30,804 nucleotides of DNA, from positions 1-30,804 of the IMG/VR virus record IMGVR_UViG_3300021963_000019. One strand, 5' to 3'. The notes below the pieces were generated by a model that searched no databases, was not told the origin of the DNA, and saw only the letters and a list, made by a program, of their open reading frames with translations. This DNA comes from a virus. This document shows positions 1-30,804 of the stretch, one piece after another. The position numbers and the translations under genes were made by a program. The stretch's first letter is position 1. Each line of letters starts with the position of its first letter.

Positions 1-66
1 CCCTGTTGTAACCGCACCTGCTACTACATACGCTTGAACAGGTTGCATATTTTGTTCTGCCATACC
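1..66. repeat. terminal direct repeat, left copy (assembly overlap)
   Basis: Bases 1-66 are identical to 30739-30804. The repeat lies inside the tape-measure reading frame, and joining the ends keeps that frame open (codon phase is preserved). This marks a circularly closed assembly of about 30,738 bp rather than a separate biological element; the virion DNA could still be circularly permuted. Confidence 0.9.
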
Positions 67-1815
67 TTGTGCTATTTGATTTGCACCACCTTGACCTACT
101 ACATTGAAAGAAGGGGCTGAACCTGCACCTGCACCACCACCCGTTCCTGCACCTGCACCACTCGGAGCACCACCACCACCTAAAGCAGAAAGTGCTTTTG
201 ATGTAGCTGCTATATTTGCTGCAATACCTAAACCTGCAGAAACTTGATTCATTATTTTTTTAGTAGCTAAATATGGAATACCTGCAGGACCCATTAAAGC
301 TGCTGCTGCTGTATCGGCTGCATTAGCTGCTTGTGTACCAATTATAATTCTTGCAATACCCATAGCACTTTCAGCAATAATTAAACCTTTTTGTATATCT
401 TCATTTCCTTCAAACAAGCCTTTTAATAAACTTAAACCACCTTCTATATTTGATAATGTAGCTTCTTGTATTGCTTTTTTACCTTCTAAAGTTGCTTTTT
501 CTTGTTCTAATATTTTTTCTTTAGTTTGTGTTGCATTAAGAATTAAAGCATTATCTATTTCTTGTTTTTTAGTTTTAAAAGCTAATTCAGCATCTACTCT
601 TGCTTGTGTACCTAAAGTTGCAGCATTTATATTATTTTGTAACCTTTCAAGTTCAATTCTTTTTTCTTCTTCTAAATTAGCTTTTTGTTTTGCTAATTTT
701 TTTAATTCGTTTGTTTCTAATTCTTCATCAAATTTTCTTTGTTCAATAGCTAAAGCATTTAAACCTTCAATTTCTGATTGACCTAAAGCAATTTTTTCTT
801 TTTGTAAAGAAATGTTATTTGCAATTTGTTCACTTCGTAAACCTTCAACTTGTGCTAATACTCCTTCTTTATTTGCTAATGCTTCTGTTACAGCAGCTTG
901 GTTTTCAATGCTTTTATTCATTGAATAATTTGCTTGGGCTGCTTGAACTTGTAAATCAGCTTGGGCTATCATAGCTTTTTGCTGTTTTTCTAAAACTTTC
1001 TGTAAATCATTATTAGCTTTAATTCTATCATCAATGCTTAATAAATCATTATCCCTAATTTGTCTTAATTTTTCTGCTTGTCTATCATATTGTTCAACTA
1101 ACCTACCTTGTTCTGCAGCAGCTAATATAGCAGTGTTTTGTAGTTTAACATTTGCCTCGGATGCTTTATATGTTTTAACAGCATAATTTGTAATTGCTTC
1201 TGCAGCATCACCTAAAGCTTTACCTGTTCTATCAACTGTATTATTAACACCTGTAAATATATCAACGGATTCTTTACCTGCTTTTTTAACAGAATCCATA
1301 GCACCTGCAAAATCACCCTGAAATACTTTGCTTATTGCTTCACCAATATAACCTATTGTATCTAAAAATGAATTAAACCTTTCAATTAAATTTTCTTTAA
1401 CTAAATCACCAAACTTTTTTAAATACTTTGTAGGATTTTCAAATACATCTTTAAATACATTTATAACAGCAGGGAAATTATCCATTACAAAGCCAACCAA
1501 ATCATTAAAGGCAATAGATAAAGCACCAATAACAGTATTAAAAGCATCTACAACTTTTTGATTTTTACCTAATACTTCCTTAAAAATATTAAATGCTTCT
1601 AAAACTAAACCAATACCAAGTGCTTTAATAGCAAGTCCCATTCCTTTAAACCCATCGGACATAGCTTTAATTCCTGATTCAGCATTTTTAGTAGATTTTT
1701 GTATGCTTTTTATTTCATCTGCAGTATCATCAAAAGTAGAATTTAATTTTTTTACTTCTTTAGTAACAACATCTAAATTACTTTGTATTTCTAAATTTAC
1801 TATTTTGTTTTCCAT
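1..1815 (-). CDS. Tail tape-measure protein (first 605 codons; continues at 30738-30694)
   Basis: The ATG is at 1815-1813 and the frame runs off position 1. Joined to 30738-30694 across the circular junction it gives about 619 aa. Residues 1-60 are polar and helical (MENKIVNLEIQSNL...). Hydrophobic or amphipathic segments follow (GMGLAIKALGIGLVLEAF), then a long Ala/Gln/Glu-rich coiled-coil centre and a Gly/Ala-rich low-complexity stretch near 121-190, ending in a short basic tail. This pattern is typical of siphovirus tape-measure proteins, which span the tail lumen and set tail length; at about 1.5 Å per residue it would suit a tail near 90 nm (inference). It is the last gene of the tail block and starts 16 bases inside the preceding 48-codon gene. 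No peptidase domain is visible. Confidence 0.85.
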   Translation of the reverse strand, partial: MENKIVNLEIQSNLDVVTKEVKKLNSTFDDTADEIKSIQKSTKNAESGIKAMSDGFKGMGLAIKALGIGLVLEAFNIFKEVLGKNQKVVDAFNTVIGALSIAFNDLVGFVMDNFPAVINVFKDVFENPTKYLKKFGDLVKENLIERFNSFLDTIGYIGEAISKVFQGDFAGAMDSVKKAGKESVDIFTGVNNTVDRTGKALGDAAEAITNYAVKTYKASEANVKLQNTAILAAAEQGRLVEQYDRQAEKLRQIRDNDLLSIDDRIKANNDLQKVLEKQQKAMIAQADLQVQAAQANYSMNKSIENQAAVTEALANKEGVLAQVEGLRSEQIANNISLQKEKIALGQSEIEGLNALAIEQRKFDEELETNELKKLAKQKANLEEEKRIELERLQNNINAATLGTQARVDAELAFKTKKQEIDNALILNATQTKEKILEQEKATLEGKKAIQEATLSNIEGGLSLLKGLFEGNEDIQKGLIIAESAMGIARIIIGTQAANAADTAAAALMGPAGIPYLATKKIMNQVSAGLGIAANIAATSKALSALGGGGAPSGAGAGTGGGAGAGSAPSFNVVGQGGANQIAQGMAEQNMQPVQAYVVAGAVTTG

Positions 1816-5385: not shown

Positions 5386-5918
5386 TTTTTATCTTTTAAA
5401 TTATAATCTACCATTGTTTCAACATCCTGACCGAACGCCTTTATTAAATCTATATCTATGTATTTTTTATATCCTGCTTCAAATGGTTTAGTAAAGAATA
5501 AAGAAGGTTTAATACCTTTGTGAAATATAGAACGTGTAATTAAATAAGCTGTTGAATCGTAACTTAAAAACCTACCTCTTTTATCCCTGAATTGAAAACC
5601 TTTTTGTTTAACCCATTTATTTATCCCTTGTGTTAAACCACCTTTTTTACCTGTACCACTACCAAACTTATAAGGGCTGTTAGGTGCTTTATTAGAACTT
5701 GTTTTACCTTTAACACCTAAATCTACAAATGTTCCATAATCATTCATTGTAAACCCTACAATAGCATAATTATCATCTGTTACTATTTCACCTTTTAAAC
5801 TATTTGCTAATGAACTTGTGTTGTTATGACCTGTACGTTTTAAATTATCCTTTGCTTCACGAATAACATAATCACGAAACATCTGAATAGTTTTATTTAC
5901 TTTTTCAAGTTTTAACAT
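5382..5918 (-). CDS. Tail completion / head-tail joining protein (HK97 gp10-like), 178 aa
   Basis: An N-terminal helix (MLKLEKVNKTIQMFRDYVIREAKDN) is followed by a segment with NYAIVGFTMNDYGTFVDLGV and a Gly/Lys-rich loop (SPYKFGSGTGKKGG), then KPSLFFTKPFEAGYKK. The order 'helix, N-x-Y-G-x-F-V-x-x-G, basic loop, FF-x-x-PF' is characteristic of HK97 gp10-like tail-completion proteins. Its neighbour just upstream looks like the tail terminator, a normal pairing. Seven bases overlap that neighbour. Confidence 0.65.
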   Translation of the reverse strand: MLKLEKVNKTIQMFRDYVIREAKDNLKRTGHNNTSSLANSLKGEIVTDDNYAIVGFTMNDYGTFVDLGVKGKTSSNKAPNSPYKFGSGTGKKGGLTQGINKWVKQKGFQFRDKRGRFLSYDSTAYLITRSIFHKGIKPSLFFTKPFEAGYKKYIDIDLIKAFGQDVETMVDYNLKDKK

Positions 5919-6367
5919 TTTGTCATTTTGTTTTCAATAGCAATATCAAAAGTAAAAGTTACACCTGCTATTTTGTTTTCAAATCTTTCAGTAAAAAATT
6001 CAATGTTTGCAGTACCATTAACTAATTCGTAATCTTCTGCTAAAGCACCTCTGCTTAATACTTCTAAAAATCTATTTGCTACAGCTAATTGTGTGTTTAA
6101 TACATCCTGCTCATTATCGTTACCAAGAAATATATCTGTAACTTTTGATTTACTTTCATCTACAATATCCATACATAAAATAGATATATTATAATTTAAT
6201 ACAGGACCTTGATACGATACTGAATTAACTATAATATGACTTAATGGAAATATAGTTTGTTTATTTAAATCTACTTTAAATATATCACCTGTTGTAACTG
6301 TATTTACAAATATATCTTCTTGTAGTTTATTCTTTATTACTTGTGTTATTTCGTAAAATGTACTCAT
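5912..6367 (-). CDS. Tail terminator-like protein, 151 aa
   Basis: Mixed alpha/beta protein with an N-terminal helix (MSTFYEITQVIKNKLQED), a central strand pair around IIVNSVSYQGPVLNYNISIL, and a C-terminal strand motif (IAGVTFTFDIAIENKM) typical of tail terminator proteins that cap the tail tube. Its ATG forms a TAATG overlap with the stop of the -1 frame of the chaperone gene at 6367-6369, which supports both that stop and this start. Confidence 0.55.
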   Translation of the reverse strand: MSTFYEITQVIKNKLQEDIFVNTVTTGDIFKVDLNKQTIFPLSHIIVNSVSYQGPVLNYNISILCMDIVDESKSKVTDIFLGNDNEQDVLNTQLAVANRFLEVLSRGALAEDYELVNGTANIEFFTERFENKIAGVTFTFDIAIENKMTKC

Positions 6368-6618
6368 TATCTTTTTTTAATTAAATCCGATTCTATTTTG
6401 TTTTTTTGTTTTTCAAATGTTAGGTATGTTAAACATTGGTTAATTGGTAATTCTGTGATTGTGTCAAATCTTGTAATATCCCCCTGAGCAAGTCCATAGA
6501 TTGAAGAATACCAACCCCATCGTTTGCCAAACTGTGCTGTTGCAGAATAGTCTGCATCTGCTTGTTCGTATCCAAATAGTTCATCGTACTTTTCAATAAT
6601 TCGTTGCCTAAATTGTAA
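6367..6618 (-). CDS. Tail assembly chaperone, -1 frameshift extension (83 codons)
   Basis: In the -1 frame an open stretch begins right after a TAA just upstream of the T9 run and continues to TAA at 6367-6369. It contains no ATG, GTG or TTG, so it can only be reached by frameshifting from the chaperone gene. Slippage at T-TTT-TTT would append 83 residues beginning LQFRQRIIEKYDELFG and containing FGKRWGWYSSIYGLAQGDIT and ELPINQCLTYLTFEKQKNKI, a sequence with strong coding character. The fusion would be about 248 aa, analogous to lambda gpG-T. The extension ends in a TAATG overlap with the next gene. A homopolymer sequencing error is the main alternative. Confidence 0.75.
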   Translation of the reverse strand, partial: LQFRQRIIEKYDELFGYEQADADYSATAQFGKRWGWYSSIYGLAQGDITRFDTITELPINQCLTYLTFEKQKNKIESDLIKKR

Positions 6619-7112
6619 AAAAAAACATTAGCACCAAATACAACATCCAAAGGTGCGTGTTTCATTACATCACTATACGTTATACTACCATTATACTTTT
6701 CTATTTCGTATGTATTATTTAAACCTTTCTTTTTAATTGGTCTATACAATACAGCCATAGCTTTATGCATATTATCCCAATCACCAATGTATGAATCTAA
6801 ATCTGTATATTCGCCAAAAGTCATTTCATCTAAATCAGGAATAAAACCAAATTCAACTCCACCAAGTTTAAATCTGTTTATAAACCTATGTGAAGTAACA
6901 TCAAACATTTTACCAAGTGATGCAGTTATTTGTAACACATCCTTATACTTGATTTCAGCAACATCTTTTAAATCTATATTGCAGAACGTTTGAACCATTT
7001 TCTGATTCATAAATTCAACATCATCATTATCTTTAGCTATTTTTAAAAACGCCTGATATTGTGATAACTTAATTTCATTTAATTCTGTTGGTACGCTAAT
7101 TTCTAATTTCAT
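6429..7112 (-). CDS. Tail assembly chaperone, zero-frame product, 227 aa
   Basis: The first product of the tail block. I chose the ATG at 7112 (MKLEISVPTELNEIKLSQYQ), preceded by the standard A-rich leader; an upstream in-frame ATG at 7172 lies inside the terminator hairpin and is unlikely. Residues 1-160 are a helical domain like the chaperones of Bacteroidota siphophages. At codons 163-165 the gene crosses a run of nine T residues (minus strand, 6625-6617). The zero frame continues for 62 more residues (NLGNELLKSTMNYL...) to TAA at 6429; the alternative frame is described separately. Tail chaperones bind the tape measure during tail assembly. Confidence 0.7.
   Translation of the reverse strand: MKLEISVPTELNEIKLSQYQAFLKIAKDNDDVEFMNQKMVQTFCNIDLKDVAEIKYKDVLQITASLGKMFDVTSHRFINRFKLGGVEFGFIPDLDEMTFGEYTDLDSYIGDWDNMHKAMAVLYRPIKKKGLNNTYEIEKYNGSITYSDVMKHAPLDVVFGANVFFYNLGNELLKSTMNYLDTNKQMQTILQQHSLANDGVGILQSMDLLRGILQDLTQSQNYQLTNV
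6617..6626 (-). promoter_or_regulatory. Probable -1 ribosomal frameshift site (G + T9)
   Basis: On the minus strand the zero frame reads GTT TTT TTT TAC. The heptamer T-TTT-TTT permits both tRNAs to re-pair after a one-base backward slip, after which the next codon is TTA and the 83-codon frame follows. I did not identify a convincing downstream pseudoknot by eye. Confidence 0.65.
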
Positions 7113-7773: not shown

Positions 7774-8982
7774 TTAATATATAAAATAGTTCCCTTTATT
7801 AGCATTTCCTAATTGATATGTAACAGCGTAACGCAACGGATCGAGTAAATGGTTGTGGGCATCGATTGGAGTTTTTGACTTTTTTTCTAACCAACAATAA
7901 TTATTTAATTCTCTAATTAAGTTTATTGATTCAGGTGATACAATCAAATCATAATCTTGCAATACACTAATACCATACGTAACAGAATCAGGACCTTTAA
8001 TTGCAGGTACAATATTTAATCCTAATGTTTGAAGTTCTGAAATCAATCTTGGCTCGGAAGAATCAGCTACGATTAAACCATCGTTTGCGTGTTGCTTGTT
8101 TAATTGATATATCTGACTTGTTGTTAAACCTTTTAAATAAAACCTTTCATTAATATAAATTCGTTTGTTAGAACTATCTATATTGCATTCTAATAAAGTT
8201 GATTCATCTGAAGCAAAACCATAATCTTGACCAAAGATAGATTTACCTATTTGTTTATATTCGCCTATAGTCCAATTAGTAAATATAACTCCTTCTGCTT
8301 TATCTAACCAACCACCTAAAATTTGATGCTTATATTTTTCAGGTCTACGTTTCTTTATATTCTCTATTTGATTTATAAATGATTCAGATAGGTTATTGAT
8401 ATTATCTAAATAGGTAGTATGTATATATGTAGTATCACCTTTGATTAAATTGCTTCCTGCTTCTACACCTTTATCTTCAAAGAACTTCTTATATATAAAG
8501 TGTTCTTTTGTTGCAGGGTTCAATATTAATAAAATTCTATTATGTATTCCTTTAGTACGAATACTTAAATCTATTTTATCAAATATATCTTCATCTGTTA
8601 ATTCTTCTGCCTCATCTAAAACGAATGTTGTAACACCTGCTAAAGATTTTAAAGAAGCTGTTTGTGTACCACTACTTGTTTTAATACCTTTAAATAAGAT
8701 TTTAGACCCTGTTTTAAGATTTACTATTTCATCTTTAGTTATATAAAAATCGTTGCTTAAATCAGCTGTTTCAATTTTGTCTATAAATTCAGGAATAATA
8801 GAAACGTTAGCAGAAGTTAAAGTATAACGTGTAAATAATATTACGTGTCCTGCTTCATAGGTTAATAGTAATAAAAACGAGTTAAGGGAATATGATTTAC
8901 CACTTCCCCTACCACCTGTAATTACAAAGTACCTACTATCTGAACCTAATAGATTATATTTCTGATTTATTGCTATTCCCAA
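7774..8982 (-). CDS. terL: Terminase large subunit (TerL), 402 aa
   Basis: The DNA-packaging motor: an N-terminal ATPase pumps DNA into the procapsid and a C-terminal RNase H-fold nuclease cuts it. Walker A GGRGSGKS is at residues 23-30, Walker B VLDEAEEL at 121-128 (D123, catalytic E124), and a coupling motif LILNPA near 152-157. Nuclease acidic residues fit GQDYGF (D253), VADSSEP (D307) and LLDPLRYAV (D381). All expected motifs are present, so the protein looks intact. It overlaps the small subunit gene by 29 bases. Unusually, it is followed not by the portal but by two small genes and the tail block. Confidence 0.95.
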   Translation of the reverse strand: MGIAINQKYNLLGSDSRYFVITGGRGSGKSYSLNSFLLLLTYEAGHVILFTRYTLTSANVSIIPEFIDKIETADLSNDFYITKDEIVNLKTGSKILFKGIKTSSGTQTASLKSLAGVTTFVLDEAEELTDEDIFDKIDLSIRTKGIHNRILLILNPATKEHFIYKKFFEDKGVEAGSNLIKGDTTYIHTTYLDNINNLSESFINQIENIKKRRPEKYKHQILGGWLDKAEGVIFTNWTIGEYKQIGKSIFGQDYGFASDESTLLECNIDSSNKRIYINERFYLKGLTTSQIYQLNKQHANDGLIVADSSEPRLISELQTLGLNIVPAIKGPDSVTYGISVLQDYDLIVSPESINLIRELNNYCWLEKKSKTPIDAHNHLLDPLRYAVTYQLGNANKGNYFIY

Positions 8983-29549: not shown

Positions 29550-29759
29550 TTAACCATTAGAACGTACCATAGTTCTTTCAGTATTTACATTTGTAACTGA
29601 ACTTGATTGTTGTGCTACAGTTGAACCAATACCTTGTTCTTGTAATTCACCTTGGCAACATTCAGAACTATATTTTCCATCTTTACAAAGACATCCTCTT
29701 TTTCCACCTTTAGGCGAACTTGTTTTATTACCCATAATTTTATTTATTAATTTAAACAT
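29550..29759 (-). CDS. Small Cys-rich protein, 69 aa
   Basis: MFKLINKIMGNKTSSPKGGK then RGCLCKDGKYSSECCQGELQ and EQGIGSTV. The motif GCLCKDGKYS-x-ECCQGELQEQGIG is shared by small proteins near head genes in Bacteroidota phages. Overlaps the protease stop by one base (TAATG). Function unknown. Confidence 0.75.
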   Translation of the reverse strand: MFKLINKIMGNKTSSPKGGKRGCLCKDGKYSSECCQGELQEQGIGSTVAQQSSSVTNVNTERTMVRSNG

Positions 29760-30658
29760 TATTCTTTTCTTATTTGCTTTAATTTTCTACTTGCCCATTC
29801 AATACCTGCATCACCACCCCAAGCTAACCACATTAAACGCCCACATCCTTCGCCTAATGGTCTATCTGAATTTTGTCTTTGTCTTTCAAATGATGCCATT
29901 CTTGCGATTGTATCTTCTGAAATTGGTTCTCTATTTGCTAATTGATTTGCCCTTGCTTTACCTACAGGCGTACCACAAGCACCCCATCCATTCTCTTCTG
30001 CATATCTTAAAGCTATCTTTGCATTTTCAGTAGCTTGTTCAGGATAATCTGTATATGATTCTAAATTAGTCTTTTTTTTTTCGCTATTTAAAATAATATC
30101 TTTTATTTTATTTAGCAATTCTAATTCTTTTTCTTGTTGTAAAGACATTTCTAATTTATCAGCAAAGTAACCTTCGATTGAAAAACCTTTTACTTTACCT
30201 GTTTTAACAAAATCATTCCAAATAGTATCATTATTTACTTTCATTGAAACTACCCAAGAACCTACAGGTGCATCTAAACCATATTTTTTAGATTTGTCCA
30301 TTTCTGCATCTTCAACAATCCAAGATTCTACAATACTTAAATCTTTTAATTCTTTTTGATGTTCTAATGTAGCGTTGTTTTGATTTGAGTTCATTAAAAA
30401 CAATTCACTTGCTTTACGTACTGTTTCATCTGAAAAGAAAATGTAATATTCATCATTACCATTTCTTCTATAAATGTGCTTGTTAGGAATTAAAGCAGCA
30501 CCCATTAAAATACGTTTTTCATCATCAACTTTTGCCAAAGCTAATTGTTGATTTAATGAAACAAAATTAGATTCTATTGCAGGAAATTCTACTATTGAAA
30601 CAGCATCAACTCCTGATAGTTCTTCATTTTCATCTATTATTAGTTCTATTATCTTCAT
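29759..30658 (-). CDS. XkdF-type head maturation protease with C-terminal extra domain, 299 aa
   Basis: MGAALIPNKHIYR (52-64), an H100 in NATLEHQ and the VKGFSIEGYF block (156-165, S160) are the hallmarks of XkdF/Peptidase S78-like prohead proteases. S160 is the likely nucleophile. From about residue 202 an additional domain reads YPEQATENAKIALRYAEENG, CGTPVGKARANQLANREPIS and GEGCGRLMWLAWGGDAGIEW; a similar domain follows other phage proteases and may bind DNA or the capsid. Acts in capsid maturation with the scaffold and capsid genes downstream. Confidence 0.75.
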   Translation of the reverse strand: MKIIELIIDENEELSGVDAVSIVEFPAIESNFVSLNQQLALAKVDDEKRILMGAALIPNKHIYRRNGNDEYYIFFSDETVRKASELFLMNSNQNNATLEHQKELKDLSIVESWIVEDAEMDKSKKYGLDAPVGSWVVSMKVNNDTIWNDFVKTGKVKGFSIEGYFADKLEMSLQQEKELELLNKIKDIILNSEKKKTNLESYTDYPEQATENAKIALRYAEENGWGACGTPVGKARANQLANREPISEDTIARMASFERQRQNSDRPLGEGCGRLMWLAWGGDAGIEWASRKLKQIRKE

Positions 30659-30693: not shown

Positions 30694-30804
30694 TTAACCC
30701 ATTGAAGCGTTGTTAATGATATTTCTGTTTAATGCTTGCCCTGTTGTAACCGCACCTGCTACTACATACGCTTGAACAGGTTGCATATTTTGTTCTGCCA
30801 TACC
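30694..30804 (-). CDS. Tail tape-measure protein, 3' end (continues from position 1)
   Basis: Minus-strand continuation of the gene at 1815-1. Bases 30739-30804 repeat 1-66, and the last unique codons give ALNRNIINNASMG and a TAA at 30694-30696. A C-terminus of the form R-x-I-x-NNA-S-x-G is usual in these tape-measure proteins. The protease gene starts 36 bases downstream. Confidence 0.85.
   Translation of the reverse strand, partial: GMAEQNMQPVQAYVVAGAVTTGQALNRNIINNASMG
30739..30804. repeat. terminal direct repeat, right copy (assembly overlap)
   Basis: Exact copy of bases 1-66; see the left copy. Removing it leaves a 30,738-bp circle. Confidence 0.9.

Follow-up and report, generated by a model that had tools for sequence, protein, structure and literature searches.

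Frameshifting in tail chaperone genes is textbook ribosomal recoding. The genes that fill this role in different phages share little sequence (PMC5009743), and the distance from the slip site to the in-frame stop codon has a mean of 26 nt in the SEA-PHAGES set and 36 nt in the phages of Xu et al. (PMC10885494). A second group of described systems relies on programmed transcriptional slippage at runs of nine A or nine T, as in Thermus dnaX (A9), Shigella spa13 and mxiE, and IS elements (PMC1088944, PMC5009743); where homologues keep the length of a 9A or 9T run, its role is very likely transcriptional slippage (PMC1088944).

The window analysed here, a stretch of 30,804 nucleotides of the IMG/VR virus record IMGVR_UViG_3300021963_000019, carries on its minus strand a gene with two overlapping reading frames (Table 1). 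An earlier note on this DNA had described a T9 run in the frame GTT TTT TTT TAC, a -1 frame that follows a stop codon, contains no ATG, GTG or TTG and ends in a TAATG overlap with the next gene, and some 190 bases over which both frames remain open. The run and its phase are exact to the base, and the attributes of the -1 frame were all confirmed in the sequence. Its first base (6627) lies directly after a TAA, and its own stop (TAA, 6369-6367) overlaps the ATG of the next gene as TAATG; homologues commonly have the next ATG overlapping or near the -1 stop. Frame 0 runs from an ATG at 7112 to a TAA at 6431-6429. The two frames are jointly open for 196 nt on the minus strand, and the distance from the end of the T9 to the frame-0 stop is 185 nt. 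A -1 shift at the T9 would yield a 248-aa GT-like product made of residues 1-165 followed by 83 aa from the -1 frame. No other gene of the window has a T9 on its coding strand.

Table 1. Coordinates of the slip site, the reading frames around it and neighboring genes in the window.
Feature	Position	Strand	Basis
T9 slippage site, GTT TTT TTT TAC (frame 0)	6617-6625	minus	sequence; T9/T10 in 287/287 distinct homologues
Frame-0 product, G-like, 227 aa (N-terminal domain and frame-0 tail)	6429..7112	minus	sequence; PHROG 32199; AlphaFold2
-1 frame without ATG/GTG/TTG	6367..6627	minus	sequence; T domain -1 from N domain in 381/381 loci
Dual-coding stretch, 185 nt, frame-0 tail over -1 domain	6432..6616	minus	substitution classes; frame-0 stop avoidance with third-frame control
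TAG shutting the third frame, third third-frame codon past the T9	6608..6610	minus	third-frame stop there in 284/287 homologues
Next gene, 151 aa; ATG overlaps -1 stop as TAATG	5912..6367	minus	sequence
Terminase large subunit, upstream of chaperone gene	7774..8982	minus	Pfam Terminase_3, E 2.8e-32
Probable tape measure, 605 aa to window end	1..1815	minus	PHROG 21537 virion structural protein, E 4.6e-20

By position and layout, this gene is a tail chaperone resembling lambda G/GT. It is located among tail genes, upstream of the probable tape measure and in the same direction, and it is followed on the same strand by genes for proteins of 151, 178, 356 and 790 aa and then by the probable tape measure. 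In Nonlabens phage P12024S, the terminase gene likewise lies directly upstream of the homologous gene. This gene block is a siphovirus-like head-tail block, and a -1-shifted gene at such a place fits the expectation for a tail chaperone. The earlier identification as a tail chaperone therefore holds for position and layout, but homology to lambda G and T is undetectable: comparison with both by hhalign gave no match (probability 0.2 and 0.1 percent, respectively), and no chaperone model of Pfam or NCBIfam was matched. The frame-0 protein does match PHROG 32199 (E 9.2e-16), as do 79 of the 79 members of our alignment A3. The tape measure is considered probable on the basis of its length, its sequence character and its PHROG match to a virion protein; the gene continues at 30694-30804 through a 66-bp terminal repeat. 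This direct repeat occupies positions 1-66 and 30739-30804 of the window and makes it probable that the genome is complete and circularly permuted, the two ends of the window each carrying part of the probable tape-measure gene.

AlphaFold2 models the frame-0 protein with a mean pLDDT of 84.6 and with confidence up to about residue 180. A predicted helix at residues 155-197 spans the slip site (residues 163-165) and includes about the first 25 residues of the frame-0 tail; block pLDDT is 88 and 82 over residues 161-180 and falls to low values beyond. The part of the tail within this predicted helix matches the segment in which constraint on frame 0 is strongest, as described below. A helical domain is predicted for the -1 part. 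Searches of solved structures by sequence returned no match for the -1 domain and no credible match for the N domain, and when structures were compared with Foldseek and VIA, the N domain had no hit exceeding noise and the -1 domain had just two weak rows, both from VIA. The best viral matches are uncharacterised phage proteins, including the Nonlabens homologue. In A0A6J5N0W0, A0A6J7WJY4 and other viral proteins, both predicted models were matched in one chain, as is expected of natural in-frame fusions.

When viral contigs and genomes were scanned, both domains were present at 381 loci, and in every one of them the downstream domain lies in the -1 frame relative to the upstream domain; approximately 35 further loci are consistent with this relation. 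T runs were counted in 287 distinct complete homologue sequences. The run is T9 in 275 of these and T10 in the other 12, never shorter, with identical codon phase. The two Phe codons at the slip are TTT TTT in all 287, whereas TTT accounts for only 79 percent of the Phe codons elsewhere in the gene, and a slippery heptamer of the form X_XXY_YYZ, here U_UUU_UUU, stands in frame in every homologue. A run of nine T is error-prone on some sequencing platforms, and a sequencing error or a broken gene could be suspected for that reason. The homologues exclude this explanation, to which we assign negligible probability, since the great majority of the distinct sequences, which come from many samples, share the T9, as do the isolate genomes P12024S and P12024L, and since both frames are under selection; a pseudogene is rejected as well.

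Relatives in named records are Nonlabens phages P12024S and P12024L, together with contigs of metagenome-assembled genomes (MAGs) labelled Flavobacterium, Winogradskyella and Psychroflexus; among cultured phages, no match other than the two Nonlabens phages was obtained. Genes 38 and 39 of P12024S are the two frames of the chaperone gene, with the T9 present (locus L156, 3001-3695; JQ823122.1, 23136-23830), and are annotated as separate hypothetical proteins. We also observed a contig from a MAG labelled Euryarchaeota (L321) that carries a phage chaperone gene with the T9; the label is probably a binning error or that of a mislabelled phage contig. Another locus (L438), from a genome that shares its family with the Flavobacterium MAG, has a frame of about 217 residues whose C-terminal part is the -1 domain (E 6.6e-6), and it lacks a long T run. 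The match is weak and lies in a single frame, and L438 is possibly an in-frame fusion relative.

The annotation of P12024S, in which the second gene is given an ATG at the frame-0 stop, raises the question of whether the -1 frame is a separate gene with its own start codon or one that is translated by coupling at that stop. An ATG precedes the main (W) motif in the -1 frame of only 8 of the 287 homologues, and 217 have no ATG, GTG or TTG there at all. Independent initiation was for this reason rejected as a general mechanism. Moreover, the conserved region begins at the T9, upstream of any such ATG, and we consider a separate gene extremely unlikely.

In order to describe selection within the overlap, we compared near relatives in 108 disjoint pairs and calculated substitution rates per opportunity. 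Upstream, where a single frame is read, synonymous changes occur at a rate of 0.244. Within the overlap, changes silent in both frames occur at a rate of 0.341, frame-0-only changes at 0.091, -1-only changes at 0.068, and changes altering both frames at 0.036. The bootstrapped ratio to the upstream synonymous rate is 0.33-0.45 for frame-0-only and 0.24-0.35 for -1-only changes; rates so far below the synonymous rate indicate purifying selection on both frames, while the free evolution of doubly silent sites is evidence against constraint at the RNA level. Selection is unevenly distributed along the overlap. Over the first 26 codons or so frame 0 is the more constrained (0.042 for frame-0-only against 0.091 for -1-only changes), and over the remainder the -1 frame is (0.056 for -1-only against 0.138 for frame-0-only changes). 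The latter value barely differs from that of synonymous changes in the downstream -1-only part (0.1405), so the amino acids in the far half of the frame-0 tail may be only weakly selected.

Stop codons were counted in 104 representatives with less than 85 percent identity, with expectations derived from the -1 amino acids and codon usage. At codons 2-56 past the slip, 32 frame-0 stops were observed against about 304 expected, an approximately tenfold avoidance, and at codons 56 to 66 the numbers were 155 and 153. In the third frame, taken as a control over the same codons, 689 stops were observed against 752 expected, and some stretches depart locally, upward or downward. Selection therefore keeps frame 0 open for about 56 codons and then releases it. 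We also simulated recoding and compared frame-0 identity among distant homologues. Identity was higher in the real than in the recoded sequences, but the same was true of the third-frame control; the simulation is confounded, because synonymous sites are unsaturated, and is not used as evidence.

These results bear on the possibility that only the -1 extension is functional and that the frame-0 tail is a by-product, open by chance. The length of the tail, 57-65 codons in most members, is only about 19-28 codons in Nonlabens-type relatives, which would agree with a by-product, as would the weak constraint on the frame-0 amino acids of the second half; the confounded recoding test offers no counter-evidence. 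A by-product does not account for the avoidance of stops over 56 codons while the third frame stays near expectation overall, nor for doubly silent changes being free (0.34), and it is contradicted for about the first 26 codons by the first-half excess of -1-only over frame-0-only changes. We consider it highly unlikely. The impression recorded in the earlier note, that both sequences look real, is borne out in that both are selected, with frame 0 leading over the first 26 codons or so and the -1 frame over the rest, and is limited by the short frame-0 tail of the Nonlabens-type relatives. Comparison across homologues, which that note had itself named as a way to refute its claim, gives strong support to a -1 shift that is conserved and followed by long dual coding. 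It appears nearly certain that the -1 relation and the T9 are fixed, that selection acts in two frames over about 56 codons, and that the -1 frame has no start codon of its own.

The earlier note had likened the shift to that of lambda. The -1 shift itself holds, but its ribosomal nature is not established, as conservation of the T9, the lack of a stimulatory structure and the scarcity of motifs resembling a Shine-Dalgarno sequence (SD-like motifs) fit slippage by the polymerase at least equally well. No consistent downstream RNA structure was found in single folds and z-scores of 79 representatives (mean z 0.13, -0.06, -0.12 and 0.09), and SD-like 4-mers occur upstream of the slip in only 7 of the 79. 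Further in favor of the polymerase, the rule on nine-base runs of conserved length (PMC1088944) applies here, and the number of T's is exactly nine even where the run has slid with respect to the codons. This is seen in two separate lineages (L435 and L437), in which the run has moved by one base and reads C-F-F-L and G-F-F-L, respectively, in place of the usual V-F-F-Y. Where the run has its common phase, amino acids conserved in both frames also account for the two T's outside U_UUU_UUU, so that only these two lineages separate a nine-T from a seven-T rule. Also in line with the polymerase, the third frame is closed at the identical codon in 284 of 287 homologues, a closure that is partly forced by dual-coded Leu and Lys/Arg codons. 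In loci L421 and L433, a T10 and an extra codon (ATT TTT TTT TTG TGG) stand ahead of the usual junction motif, and the -1 relation is kept.

The same two products and the same dual coding could instead arise on the ribosome, by a tandem -1 slip of two Phe-tRNAs on U_UUU_UUU. This heptamer is correctly framed in all homologues, and -1 ribosomal frameshifting at this place is the mechanism in lambda and in many other long-tailed phages (PMC5009743). In E. coli, however, the ribosome shifts less readily on U_UUU_UUU than on A_AAA_AAG (PMC5009743), and neither the near absence of stimulatory signals nor the retention of nine rather than seven T's when the phase slides would be anticipated for a ribosomal site. 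The other genes of the homologous loci contain fewer long runs than expected, with 6 A runs of at least nine seen against about 42 expected and 5 T runs of at least eight against about 22, a depletion that fits slippage by the polymerase. T8 in slippery phase is absent from them (0 against 14.8), which speaks for the ribosome. The scarcity of long A and T runs could also result from replication slippage. Other genes of the window itself contain one A10 and one A9; the A10 (a plus-strand T10 at 30072-30081) lies in a minus-strand protease-like gene at 29759-30658 and, being of a length rare in these genes, might also slip. On balance, we regard ribosomal slippage as a plausible but less probable origin of the two products.

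The explanation that we favor, and consider moderately likely, is that one gene gives rise to two tail-assembly chaperone isoforms, with the slip at the T9 made mostly by RNA polymerase. Unshifted decoding would produce the G-like protein, whose tail would prolong its last long helix. A one-base slip would produce the GT-like protein, which would have residues 1-165 in common with the shorter isoform and whose extra 83 residues would form a separate helical domain containing the conserved FG-KWGWY...FEKEK region. The slip would occur mostly in transcription: with one U added by RNA polymerase at the U9, some of the mRNAs would carry the two domains fused in frame; mRNAs slipped the wrong way would stop at once in the third frame. 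If the proteins act as in lambda, the short G-like form, present in many copies, would coat the tape measure, and the long GT-like form, present in few, would recruit the tail-tube protein. The existence of two products with a shared N terminus is as certain as sequence alone allows. Whether polymerase slippage on the U9 sets the ratio of G to GT throughout the clade, with two C-terminal parts drawn from the same DNA, is in our judgement evenly balanced.

Chaperones that depend on slippage are already known, and what is new here is the 185-nt dual-coding overlap after a bare T9. The signal would consist of the nine-T run by itself, and the region that follows is selected in two frames for about 56 codons. 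Since the bases past the T9 can be read in two frames, the same DNA would encode two protein ends, and the unshifted chaperone would gain a tail of its own that is absent from the standard G/GT model. Our search, which covered papers outside subscription, found none that describes this gene as frameshifted. A large branch of such genes, in phages of Flavobacteria-like hosts, is apparently unannotated, both products of P12024S and P12024L being listed as "hypothetical proteins". Gene callers that depend on start codons will split or miss the gene in hundreds of viral contigs. The family offers a clean test system in which transcriptional and ribosomal slippage can be compared for one purpose in phages.

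The closest described system is that of lambda gpG and gpGT, which resembles this locus in the shared N terminus, in shifting to -1 before the first frame has ended and in having the tape measure among the downstream tail genes. The lambda slip occurs at GGGAAAG, 15 nt from the G stop, as against a T9 at 185 nt here; the lambda G gene follows the gene for the major tail protein, whereas the chaperone gene here follows that of the terminase; and the short form here, in contrast to the lambda model, has a selected tail of its own. The chaperones of PRFect and Xu et al. (PMC10885494) also have overlapping frames, and their slippery sites precede the in-frame stop by mean distances that, like that in lambda, are far shorter than the dually selected stretch here. 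The 9A/9T slippage systems have in common with this locus a homopolymer of nine that is conserved across homologues. In Thermus dnaX, moreover, nearby stops close the other frames, much as one frame is closed at this locus. These systems are not phage tail chaperones, and slippage here is proposed from sequence. Lastly, in Potyvirus P3N-PIPO slippage likewise opens an overlapping frame that is fused to a shared N terminus (PMC4552492, PMC5009743), but it does so in plant RNA viruses, on an A-run and through an RNA-dependent polymerase.
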